From a virus, in IMG/VR virus record IMGVR_UViG_3300040960_001799, positions 1-27,932 of that record: a stretch of DNA of 27,932 nucleotides; one strand, given 5' to 3'. The position numbers and the translations under genes are program-made. Shown here piece after piece: positions 3,192-27,112 of the stretch (positions are counted from its first letter, which is position 1; each line of letters starts with the position of its first letter). The notes under the pieces were generated by a model, which did no database searches, was not told where the DNA came from, and saw only the letters and a list, made by a program, of their open reading frames with translations.

Positions 3192-3367
3192 TGGCACAGC
3201 CGGATTGGGTGGCGATCTTCGCGCTGCGGCCTGATCTGGAGCCGCCTGGCTACGCCGAGACGGTGATCGACATGTTGAGAAGCCCGCGTGAGCGTCCCGC
3301 ACGTGGAAAATCCAAGGGCCGCAAGCGCGATGCGCACTGGCCGAGCCTTAAACACGGGGCCGATTGA
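3191..3367 (+). CDS. Small basic protein, unknown
   Basis: A 58-residue protein starting at the ATG that overlaps the nuclease stop as TGATG, so its translation is probably coupled. The N-terminal half has an aromatic/proline character (PDWVAIFALRPDLEPPGY) and a short helix (AETVIDMLR); the C-terminal half is strongly basic (RERPARGKSKGRKRD), suggesting nucleic-acid contact. Its TGA stop lies inside the -35 box of the promoter at 3364-3392. No family is recognised. Coding is supported by the coupled start, the full open frame to the promoter and the same codon style as its neighbour. Confidence 0.65.
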   Translation: MAQPDWVAIFALRPDLEPPGYAETVIDMLRSPRERPARGKSKGRKRDAHWPSLKHGAD

Positions 3368-3392
3368 CCGACCCCCTGTGGTATGCCATAAT
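3364..3392 (+). promoter_or_regulatory. Sigma-70-type promoter, first copy
   Basis: TTGACC (3364-3369), a 17-base spacer and CATAAT (3387-3392) make a near-consensus promoter. The 18 bases at 3375-3392, CCTGTGGTATGCCATAAT, recur unchanged at 3741-3758. TATGCCATA (3382-3390) is a palindrome about one central base and could be an operator. Transcription would run through about 135 bases of leader before the 63-residue gene at 3534. Confidence 0.7.
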
Positions 3393-3533
3393 GGTTGGCA
3401 CGAGGGGAGCGGCCCACTCGCAAAACTCAACCGCCGGCCGAACAGCGCACACGAGGCCGTTAAACCCGAGCGCAACATGCCCTGAATAAGGCTGCACCGC
3501 CGGTTGGCCCGGCACCCACTTACCACTCAGACC

Positions 3534-3725
3534 ATGACCACTACCGTCTGCCTGCTGGCCACACTGCTCGCGCTGCTCACCGTGCCGCTGGCAATCCTGC
3601 TCTGGGCCACCGAGAGCAAACAGCAGAGAGCTCGCCGCTGGCGTCGCAAGGGCGATTCCCTGCGCTCGATTGCCGGTCGCCTTGGCGTAAGCCACACGAC
3701 AGTGCGCCGCTGGTGTGCCGCTTGA
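3534..3725 (+). CDS. Membrane-anchored helix-turn-helix mini-protein
   Basis: A 63-residue protein from ATG 3534. Residues 4-24 (TVCLLATLLALLTVPLAILL) form one strong transmembrane segment, residues 29-40 are very basic (KQQRARRWRRKG) and should stay in the cytoplasm, and residues 41-61 (SLRSIAGRLGVSHTTVRRW) look like a helix-turn-helix of the resolvase/transposase type. The combination suggests a membrane-tethered DNA-binding peptide. It lies alone between two near-identical promoters, so it has its own transcription unit. No Shine-Dalgarno is seen; the leader ends CACTTACCACTCAGACC. Coding is likely; the tethering role is an inference and no named family is recognised. Confidence 0.65.
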   Translation: MTTTVCLLATLLALLTVPLAILLWATESKQQRARRWRRKGDSLRSIAGRLGVSHTTVRRWCAA

Positions 3726-3729
3726 GGCG

Positions 3730-3758
3730 TTGACGATCCGCCTGTGGTATGCCATAAT
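3730..3758 (+). promoter_or_regulatory. Sigma-70-type promoter, second copy
   Basis: TTGACG (3730-3735), a 17-base spacer and CATAAT (3753-3758). It shares the 18-base core CCTGTGGTATGCCATAAT with the promoter at 3364-3392, 366 bases upstream. It begins just after the stop of the 63-residue gene. A short hairpin (CGGGC-GCA-GCCCG) follows in the leader, then tandem ACTCA motifs before the ATG at 3800. It probably drives the long small-gene and recombination operon. Confidence 0.75.
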
Positions 3759-6676: not shown

Positions 6677-6854
6677 TACTCAAAGGTTGCGCGAATACCG
6701 CAAACGCGCTGATCTAAAGAGGTGCCGCAATCAAGTGCAGGCCAGGCTACCGCCTGAGCTTGCTGATCGGTTCCGCCAGTACATGCGAACCAAAGGCCTC
6801 AACAAGAATCAGGCCCTTCTCTCAATCGTCTCCGCTTTCTTGAACCAATGCTGA
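6663..6854 (+). CDS. Ribbon-helix-helix-like small protein
   Basis: A 63-residue protein from ATG 6663. The N-terminus is basic (RLREYRKRADLKRCRNQ); then QVQARLPPELADRFRQYMRT and KGLNKNQALLSIVSAFL follow the strand-helix-turn-helix plan of ribbon-helix-helix proteins. It differs in sequence from the regulator at 2270-2437. It overlaps the SSB gene by 7 bases, so the two are probably made together. It may regulate the early operon or bind DNA in recombination; which cannot be told. Confidence 0.65.
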   Translation: MSQPDTQRLREYRKRADLKRCRNQVQARLPPELADRFRQYMRTKGLNKNQALLSIVSAFLNQC

Positions 6855-7192
6855 ACATCACCGCCTCCGGCAACCTCGCAGCCGATCCGCGAAACAACAC
6901 CGCAGGATCGACAGAAGTGACCAACTTCACCTTGCTGGTCAACAAGAAGATTAAGGACGAAGAATATGTGACGGCAATCGATTGCGCCGTGTGGGGGGCA
7001 CGCGCTGCTGTGGCCGCGCAGTACCTCAGCAAGGGCTGCCAGATCACAGTGGCAGGCGATGCCCACGCCGAAACTTATGAACGAAAAGACGGCTCAACAG
7101 CCTGCAAGCTGGTGCTGAGGGTCTCTAATTTCACCTTGCCACCACGCCCAGCGCAGCAGCCTGATCCGTCTGCCGCTGAAATGCCCTTCTGA
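6848..7192 (+). CDS. ssb: Single-stranded DNA-binding protein (SSB)
   Basis: A 114-residue OB-fold protein. The sequence follows bacterial SSB: LNITASGNLAADPRNNTAGS, TEVTNFTLLVNKK, AIDCAVWGARAAVAAQYLSKG and QITVAGDAHAETYERKDGS, then a short tail. The DNA-binding core is complete, while the linker is only about 15 residues and the tip reads AAEMPF, a reduced form of the usual acidic DDDIPF. SSB protects single strands and recruits partners through that tip. It closes the early recombination cluster and is followed by a terminator. It is shorter than E. coli SSB (178 residues), as phage versions often are. Confidence 0.88.
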   Translation: MLNITASGNLAADPRNNTAGSTEVTNFTLLVNKKIKDEEYVTAIDCAVWGARAAVAAQYLSKGCQITVAGDAHAETYERKDGSTACKLVLRVSNFTLPPRPAQQPDPSAAEMPF

Positions 7193-7198
7193 TCACAC

Positions 7199-7220
7199 GG
7201 CCCTTCGGGGCCTTTCTTTT
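7199..7220 (+). terminator. Intrinsic terminator after ssb
   Basis: GGCCC (7199-7203), loop TTCG and GGGCC (7208-7212) are followed by TTTCTTTT (7213-7220). The UUCG-type loop on a GC stem with a T-tract is a good rho-independent terminator. It separates the recombination cluster from the sigma factor gene 22 bases downstream, which may therefore depend on read-through or its own promoter. Confidence 0.8.
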
Positions 7221-7241
7221 GCCTTCTCACACCTTAAAGCC

Positions 7242-8162
7242 ATGGATTCCATCCACCACTATCTGACCGAGATTGCACGCCATCCTCTGCTGACTCCTGC
7301 CGAAGAGATCCAATACAGCCGACAGATCCAGAGGATGCTCGATCTGCAAGCTCAAGACATCGATCCGTCTGACTACACGCGGGAGCAGAAGATGATCATC
7401 CGCCGCGGCCAACGAGCCAAGGAGCGCATGATCACTCGCAACCTGCGCTTGGTGGTCACGATCGCGAAAAAGTACACGCGGCGCTGCTCATCGCTTGAAA
7501 TGTTGGATCTAGTGCAGTTTGGCAACATAGGTTTAGACCGTGCCACTGAACTTTTCGATCCATCGCGAGGCTATAAGTTTTCGACTTATGCCTACTGGTG
7601 GATCCGCCAATCGATCAGCCGTGGCCTGCAGGATTGCGATCGGATGATCAGGTTGCCCATCCACAGGCAGGAAAAGATTGTGAAGCTGCGCACCTTCATG
7701 ACGCGTCACCAGCAAACGACCGGCAGAGAGCCAACGCTTGCAGAATGCGCGGCCGAGCTGGAAATCGAATCTGATGATGTGATGTTGTCGCTTGTGATGG
7801 CCAGAGATGTCACGAGTCTCGACAACCATGCCTCAAACGACATTCAGAAGGATCGACTTATTGATCTGATCCCAGACGAGAAAACACTATATGAAGACGA
7901 CGATCTCACCTTTGAGCGTGACATGCTCGCAGATGCTCTCAACAGCCTGGACGAAGAAGATCGGTATTTGGTCTGCAGTTACAACGGCCTGCCCGGATAC
8001 AAGAAAGCCAGCCTTTCAGCGCTCGGCAATGAAGTTGGCATTAGCCGCGAAGGTATCAGGCAACGGATACAACGATCCATGATGCGCATCAACAGGCACA
8101 TCCGCCAGCAGTGCCAAAATGAAGGCAGGCGGCTAGCCACTAATGCGGGTTCGAGTAATTAG
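7242..8162 (+). CDS. RNA polymerase sigma factor, sigma-70 family (cyanobacterial group 2-like)
   Basis: A 306-residue sigma factor without region 1.1. Region 1.2 is at about 3-30 (SIHHYLTEIARHPLLTPAEE), region 2 at 66-139 with RNLRLVVTIAKKYTRR, RGYKFSTYAYWWIRQSISRG and MIRLPIHRQEK, region 3 at 141-195, region 4 at 228-290 with a helix-turn-helix (SLSALGNEVGISREGIRQR). It should bind host core RNA polymerase and direct it to -10/-35 promoters. The -35 contacts (Arg269, Glu270, Arg273, Gln274) are kept. Odd points: the usual core-binding IQEG reads VQFG (Phe93 in place of Glu), and residues after Gln274 differ from the norm. It is preceded by a terminator and no clear promoter. Its style suggests descent from a host gene. 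A phage transcription switch is an inference. Confidence 0.9.
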   Translation: MDSIHHYLTEIARHPLLTPAEEIQYSRQIQRMLDLQAQDIDPSDYTREQKMIIRRGQRAKERMITRNLRLVVTIAKKYTRRCSSLEMLDLVQFGNIGLDRATELFDPSRGYKFSTYAYWWIRQSISRGLQDCDRMIRLPIHRQEKIVKLRTFMTRHQQTTGREPTLAECAAELEIESDDVMLSLVMARDVTSLDNHASNDIQKDRLIDLIPDEKTLYEDDDLTFERDMLADALNSLDEEDRYLVCSYNGLPGYKKASLSALGNEVGISREGIRQRIQRSMMRINRHIRQQCQNEGRRLATNAGSSN

Positions 8163-8311: not shown

Positions 8312-8653
8312 ATGGTCAAACGCGATGCCCTGCGCCTTCCAGGCGGCATGTCAATCGAAACCGGCCCCGATTGGGATGGTCGCTATTGGATCGGCTACCG
8401 CAAGGGCTGCAGCCTTTTTTTTCGTGACGTGAAGGTGCTGCGCAAGTGGCTTGGCCTGCCGTTGGGCACACCAAGTCGCCAAGCCTTTGATAGCTGGGTC
8501 GAAAGCGTGCAAGCTTCAGACGCTGAACGCCAAGCCAAGAAGCAAAAACCTGAACAGGGCCTATCGCCTGAGCACATCGCCACCGGATTTGGGCCTGAAG
8601 TTCACGGCCTCGATGAATCTGATCCAAATCACCAGACGCGCACCATAATTTGA
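8312..8653 (+). CDS. Hypothetical protein
   Basis: A 113-residue protein from ATG 8312, one base after the previous stop. The first half looks like a small beta-rich domain with aromatic residues (GPDWDGRYWIGYRKGCSLFF) followed by a helix (DVKVLRKWLGLPLGTPSRQA); the second half is polar and probably disordered (AERQAKKQKPEQGLSPEHIA). The next gene starts within its stop (TGATG). Function unknown. Confidence 0.6.
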   Translation: MVKRDALRLPGGMSIETGPDWDGRYWIGYRKGCSLFFRDVKVLRKWLGLPLGTPSRQAFDSWVESVQASDAERQAKKQKPEQGLSPEHIATGFGPEVHGLDESDPNHQTRTII

Positions 8654-8937
8654 TGCCGGCCATCACAGCCATGAAATCTTTTGAACTCGACCAAAAACGC
8701 GCAGACATGATGGAGGCGCTTTACCAGAAAAGCGGCCGCACCTGCAACACTTACACGGGCCTATGGGAGGAGTTTTGCCGAGACATCGCCGCCAACTTCC
8801 GCGACACTTCCTACCCTGATCTGCTGAATCGCGCAGTCAAGGCGATGGACGCCACTGAGTCTGTGATGACGCAAAAACAGGCGCAGCAGGCCATAGAGGT
8901 CTGCCGTCAGAAGTTGCTGGGTAACAAGTGGCGCTAA
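8653..8937 (+). CDS. Hypothetical helical protein, last gene of the rightward operon
   Basis: A 94-residue protein from ATG 8653 (or ATG 8671 at MKSFELDQ). It is mainly helical and charged (ELDQKRADMMEALYQKSGRT, DLLNRAVKAMDATES, AQQAIEVCRQKLLG). Its TAA stop overlaps the stop of the convergent HNH gene within four bases, and no terminator lies between them. Function unknown. Confidence 0.65.
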   Translation: MPAITAMKSFELDQKRADMMEALYQKSGRTCNTYTGLWEEFCRDIAANFRDTSYPDLLNRAVKAMDATESVMTQKQAQQAIEVCRQKLLGNKWR

Positions 8938-27083: not shown

Positions 27084-27112
27084 CTTATACCACGCAGCGC
27101 CTGCTGTAGCAA
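27084..27112 (-). promoter_or_regulatory. Candidate promoter for the tail operon
   Basis: On the minus strand TTGCTA (27112-27107), a 17-base spacer and TATAAG (27089-27084) form a fair sigma-70 promoter. It lies about 55 bases before the first small gene of the tail module and after the end of the spike gene. A GGGCAGG / CCTGCCC inverted repeat follows in the leader (about 27050-27077). It is predicted from sequence only. Confidence 0.5.

Follow-up and report, generated by a model that had tools for sequence, protein, structure and literature searches.

A phage-borne, group-2-like sigma-70 factor of the cyanosiphovirus RpsD4 lineage with phenylalanine at the E407 position

Our analysis of a linear-ended IMG/VR virus record, 27,932 bases long (the window, i.e., the whole stretch of DNA analysed), which is without the terminase, portal and capsid (head gene) end, led to one main conclusion. 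The product of the ORF at 7242-8162 is probably a phage sigma factor that functions as such and belongs to the RpsD4 lineage of cyanosiphoviruses; it is of old cyanobacterial group 2 origin and would steer the host polymerase to later promoters. The initial annotation had proposed a phage-borne, cyanobacterial-style sigma factor redirecting host RNA polymerase; this part is supported, redirection of the polymerase being most likely. The gene has phage homologues and lies in a virus-only clade; it is not a host gene. Among 153 sequenced cyanophages, 65 have been reported to encode sigma factors (PMC10452541), and cyanosiphovirus sigma factors have been reported since P-SS2 (PMC2784084). Judged by its sequence, the window sigma belongs to an already known phage type, its unusual feature being the Phe residue in region 2.2.

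The sigma gene, its surroundings and its lineage

The ORF is real and complete, and its product exceeds the cut-offs of all four Pfam regions (1.2, 2, 3 and 4) and matches PHROG 351 (sigma factor, E=3e-72). Region 1.1 is missing, the protein starting at region 1.2, so that the earlier description of a complete sigma-70 lacking only region 1.1 was borne out. Together with these domains, the residues contacting the -10 and -35 elements place the protein in the sigma-70 family: in the alignment to E. coli sigma-70, W433, W434 and Q437 are kept, with T440 changed to Ser, and the region 4.2 contacts, also predicted to be retained, align as equivalents of R584, E585, R588 and Q589. The equivalents of D403 and Q406 are likewise kept, and the region 2.2 motif reads LDLVQFGNIGL, with Phe93 at the E407 position—confirming the replacement of the usual Glu noted initially. 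Two further changed sites, R562 to Tyr and F563 to Asn, are common to other phage sigmas. The AlphaFold model of the protein (mean pLDDT 82.6) has SigA holoenzyme chains as its best Foldseek matches, and Phe93 is located within a confident helix (87-104, block pLDDT 95).

Table 1. Positions of the features discussed, in window coordinates
Feature	Position	Strand	Basis or remark
Early promoter TTGACC-17-CATAAT, GGTATGC block conserved	3364..3392	+	pattern/consensus scans
Early promoter TTGACG-17-CATAAT, GGTATGC block conserved	3730..3758	+	pattern/consensus scans
Single-strand DNA binding protein gene (ssb), upstream of sigma	6848..7192	+	domain and PHROG searches
Terminator-like hairpin (UUCG loop, T-rich tail) separating ssb from sigma	7199..7222	+	L006 has the same sequence
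Group-2-like sigma-70 gene, 306 aa, regions 1.2, 2, 3, 4	7242..8162	+	ORF, domain and homology searches
Phe93 codon TTT, E. coli sigma-70 E407 position, region 2.2	7518..7520	+	alignment; L006 uses the same codon
W119 W120 I R Q123, -10 melting/recognition residues, region 2.3/2.4	7596..7610	+	alignment
R269-E-G-I-R-Q274, region 4.2 -35 contacts	8046..8063	+	alignment; R584, E585, R588, Q589 equivalents
Conserved ORF downstream of sigma	8312..8653	+	ORF list, synteny
Conserved ORF, last + strand early ORF	8650..8937	+	ORF list, synteny

Genes for an exonuclease, RusA, a Sak annealing protein and SSB lie upstream of the sigma gene, and two small conserved ORFs followed by convergent HNH, endolysin and tail genes lie on its 3' side. 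The sigma gene had been placed at the end of the early operon; it is near that end, but the ORFs at 8312-8653 and 8650-8937 still follow it. The order ssb-sigma-two small ORFs-HNH-endolysin is common to the window, Synechococcus siphovirus S-CBS3 and the records G008 and G010, the two small ORFs being swapped in S-CBS3 and G010. Given the UUCG hairpin between ssb and sigma, expression of the latter may depend on read-through past it. Similar hairpins precede a promoter in contig L300. Elsewhere in the window, three exact copies of GTGCACTTTTGTGCACTGGT, spaced by 24-26 bases, are found at 1913-1982 within a minus-strand gene for an HTH_36 protein.

Relatives were sampled in 80 virus contigs and 80 cyanobacterial genome loci, and all sigma factors were sought in seven cyanobacterial genomes. 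The closest homologue from an isolate is RpsD4 (gp29) of S-CBS3 (YP_004421751, 62% local identity), followed by those of S-CBS1 (gp27, 45%), KBS-S-2A and S-LBS1 (35-39% for the last two in the homology search), these three spanning 33-45% identity overall; all four records annotate the protein as sigma. In a careful tree, 33 phage sigmas formed one virus-only clade (bootstrap 100, SH-aLRT 98) inside cyanobacterial group 2, within which the window sigma pairs with that of contig L006, the pair next joining S-CBS3, L008 and L009. A quick tree with more rows agreed, except that S-LBS1 forms a long branch of unsure placement. Nested in this way, the window sigma is not a recent host gene, and both trees rule out a recent host origin; the grouping with a host gene that would have counted against the initial annotation is not seen. 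Its assignment to the RpsD4 lineage (S-CBS3 type) follows from the supported grouping with S-CBS3 gp29 (100/100) and from the locus between ssb and HNH/endolysin. Its relation to group 2 shows in the absence of region 1.1 and in its grouping with group 2 rather than SigA, although the score against TIGR02997 (cyanobacterial group 2) is 253.1 bits against a curated cut-off of 384.5. The tree thus depicts an old virus-specific sigma lineage rather than repeated capture of host genes.

Probable targets and the early promoters

With its origin far back in a cyanobacterial group 2 sigma, the factor would be made from the early plus-strand transcript, bind host core at the coiled coil with region 2 and at the flap with region 4, and direct the polymerase to those phage promoters that come into use once the first early genes have been expressed. 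The most likely targets would be the late minus-strand genes, which have no good consensus promoter. This late-gene role is suggested by the position of the gene, by the consensus scan of the window's late strand, where no listed promoter reaches 10 of 12 matches, and by S-CBS3, in which an extended -10 accompanies just two promoter-like hits, both early. Repeats and the stretches between genes, examined in both S-CBS3 and the window, yielded no convincing late promoter motif, and nothing upstream of S-CBS3 terL was clear as a late promoter; the target set is therefore a guess. We infer the host of the window phage by analogy with S-CBS3, which infects Synechococcus CB0202.

Indirect support for a functional sigma comes from S-CBS3 RpsD4: S. 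elongatus PCC 7942 expressing it ectopically showed raised growth and a 1.9-fold increase in acetyl-CoA (Sawa 2019, as related in PMC10452541). The same account could favour a factor acting mainly on host metabolism, as an auxiliary regulator, instead of on phage genes. However, the PCC 7942 result comes from overexpression, and the gene lies where replication genes give way to lysis genes in a small phage genome; we consider a predominantly metabolic role unlikely.

The initial annotation had also named the TTGAC/CATAAT promoters at 3364 and 3730 as possible targets. Both are present and conserved, carry an extended -10 TG and have in common the block GGTATGCCATAAT. Its exact core, GGTATGCCATANT, occurs in two to three copies each in the window, G008 and S-CBS3, and in one exact copy plus one with a single mismatch in G010, against zero expected from shuffles, and it was found in none of six picocyanobacterial genomes. 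This pattern would fit promoters dedicated to the window sigma, with autoregulation of the early operon. Among the matches listed, a pattern scan placed the element in many more contigs, where its spacing is partly by construction, as the scan required TTGA at about this distance; a core-only scan of whole records also returned copies that keep the spacing but have TTGC. Homologues of exo, RusA and Sak are found in 18 of the 18 motif records compared in detail, and a sigma-70 region 2 match above cut-off in just one of the 42 searched (G037). No such match was obtained in G025, G031, G036, G039 and G046, records of 30-45 kb that may be fragments and that carry the same element. Relatives of this kind share the early module, so the sigma is not needed for it; moreover, the two promoters precede the sigma gene and must act before sigma is made. 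Dedicated targeting is thus improbable, and 3364 and 3730 make better sense as early promoters served by host sigma in a group of phages—their presence and conservation stand, and their designation as specific targets does not. A recognition code pairing Ser at T440 with C at -12 was dropped, the same element being found in relatives lacking a sigma gene. A third proposed promoter, at 27084, corresponds on our own reading to a weak TTGCTA-17-TATAAG on the minus strand; it is absent from the consensus scan list.

Several observations concern the element itself. The combination TTGAC-(16-18)-CATAnT with a fixed GGTATGC block recurs in exo/RusA/Sak siphophages with or without a sigma gene, e.g., in L002 (4062-4090 and 6863-6890) and L300 (15421, 15777 and 16192), and also in G025, G031, G036, G038, G039 and G046. 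The sequence GGTATGCC(A) is doubled in the -35/-10 spacer, 11 bases apart, in L328 (7272, TTGACGGTATGCCATTGGTATGCCATACT), L349 (1672) and L382 (3206), and likewise in L407 (7460), L321 (627) and L354 (1977). This doubling suggests a putative operator for a DNA-binding protein. Between the two window promoters, 3504-3725 holds a small ORF whose product begins with a hydrophobic stretch and contains a helix-turn-helix of resolvase type; the helix-turn-helix part is conserved in S-CBS3-type phages. In Synechococcus phage S-B68 (MK016664.1, 59205-59231) and contig L364 (3552), sigma genes are followed, a few hundred bases on, by copies of a similar TTGAC/CATACT element, which may be coincidence. 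A literature search for a name for the GGTATGCCATA element returned no relevant paper, the string appearing in one unrelated Bacillus paper.

Phenylalanine at the coiled-coil contact

The E407 position is occupied by Glu in 80 of 80 cyanobacterial genome hits and in all 46 group 1/2 representatives. Among the virus rows Glu dominates, with Asp in the S-CBS3 group and Ala in S-LBS1, and Phe is confined, among related virus rows, to the window and to L006 with its near-copy contig L293. When IMG/VR was searched with degenerate DNA for DLxQFGxxGL—the survey of other phages that had been proposed—Phe otherwise turned up in distant, shorter phage sigmas only. These are proteins of about 250 aa with the motif DLIQFG (L278, L279, L283, L284, L289, L297, L298 and others). 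The sigma of L006 is 88% identical to that of the window and has the same TTT codon at a dS of 0.7, which rules out Phe93 as error or chance. Between the two genes, dN is 0.066 and dS 0.72 (dN/dS about 0.09), so the protein, Phe included, is being maintained, and the sigma gene, on these substitution rates, is under strong purifying selection.

From these comparisons, Phe93 is best described as a change particular to its lineage and tolerated where the protein meets the coiled coil; a special role for it is possible but unsupported. One such role would combine Phe93 with the other changes typical of phage sigmas (regions 2 and 4) into a hold on the beta-prime coiled coil mechanistically unlike that of groups 1 and 2, i.e., a new form of core capture, for example by hydrophobic, group 3-like docking or as an escape from a host anti-sigma factor—a reading we regard as decidedly improbable.

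The initial annotation had suggested that the factor may be tuned, through Phe, to compete with host SigA for core. The invariance of Glu in groups 1 and 2, set beside Phe in the window and L006, and the retention of Phe over a dS of about 0.7 would agree with tuning. Yet of the 14 sigma region-2 proteins outside groups 1/2 in the seven cyanobacterial genomes, 11 lack Glu (nine Val/Ile and two Gln/Ser; the other three have Glu), and most host group 3 sigmas, with Val/Ile, use the same core, so Phe alone is no argument for core competition. Furthermore, the S-CBS3 clade has Asp, and Phe is restricted to one small phage lineage within this sigma family. Hodgkinia sigma factors carry E407A, and coiled-coil binding in E. 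coli region 2.2 mutants was only weakened (PMC8321222), the wrong direction for better competition; the changes at R562 and F563 could matter more. Tuning by Phe93 therefore appears highly unlikely, and that part of the annotation is not supported. Finally, although some conserved sites are lost in the window sigma, its intact frame, low dN/dS and deep virus-only clade leave a decaying, non-functional acquisition from the host with next to no probability, this reading being largely refuted by purifying selection. With Phe, Asp and Glu all occurring in nature at this single contact, variants are at hand for a simple comparison of core binding.

Comparison with known sigma factors

The nearest known system, S-CBS3 RpsD4, resembles the window sigma in clade and in its place between ssb and HNH/endolysin, but has Asp where the window has Phe, and a small ORF (gp30) separates ssb from sigma in S-CBS3 where the window has the UUCG hairpin. 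The factors of S-CBS1, KBS-S-2A and S-LBS1 are, like that of the window, cyanosiphovirus sigma-70s encoded near the endolysin end, and those of S-CBS1 and KBS-S-2A belong to the same virus-only clade; unlike the window sigma, they have Glu (S-CBS1 and KBS-S-2A) or Ala (S-LBS1) at the E407 position. Cyanobacterial group 2 sigmas share with the window sigma the layout without region 1.1 and the conserved -10/-35 residues, whereas their Glu at this position is invariant and the window sigma falls under the TIGR02997 cut-off. In contrast, group 3 sigmas of cyanobacteria resemble it in the mostly hydrophobic residue (Val/Ile) at this site, but have no region 1.2-like layout and are distant from it in the quick tree. 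The phage sigmas of about 250 aa with DLIQFG also carry Phe there, but represent a different, distant sigma family.
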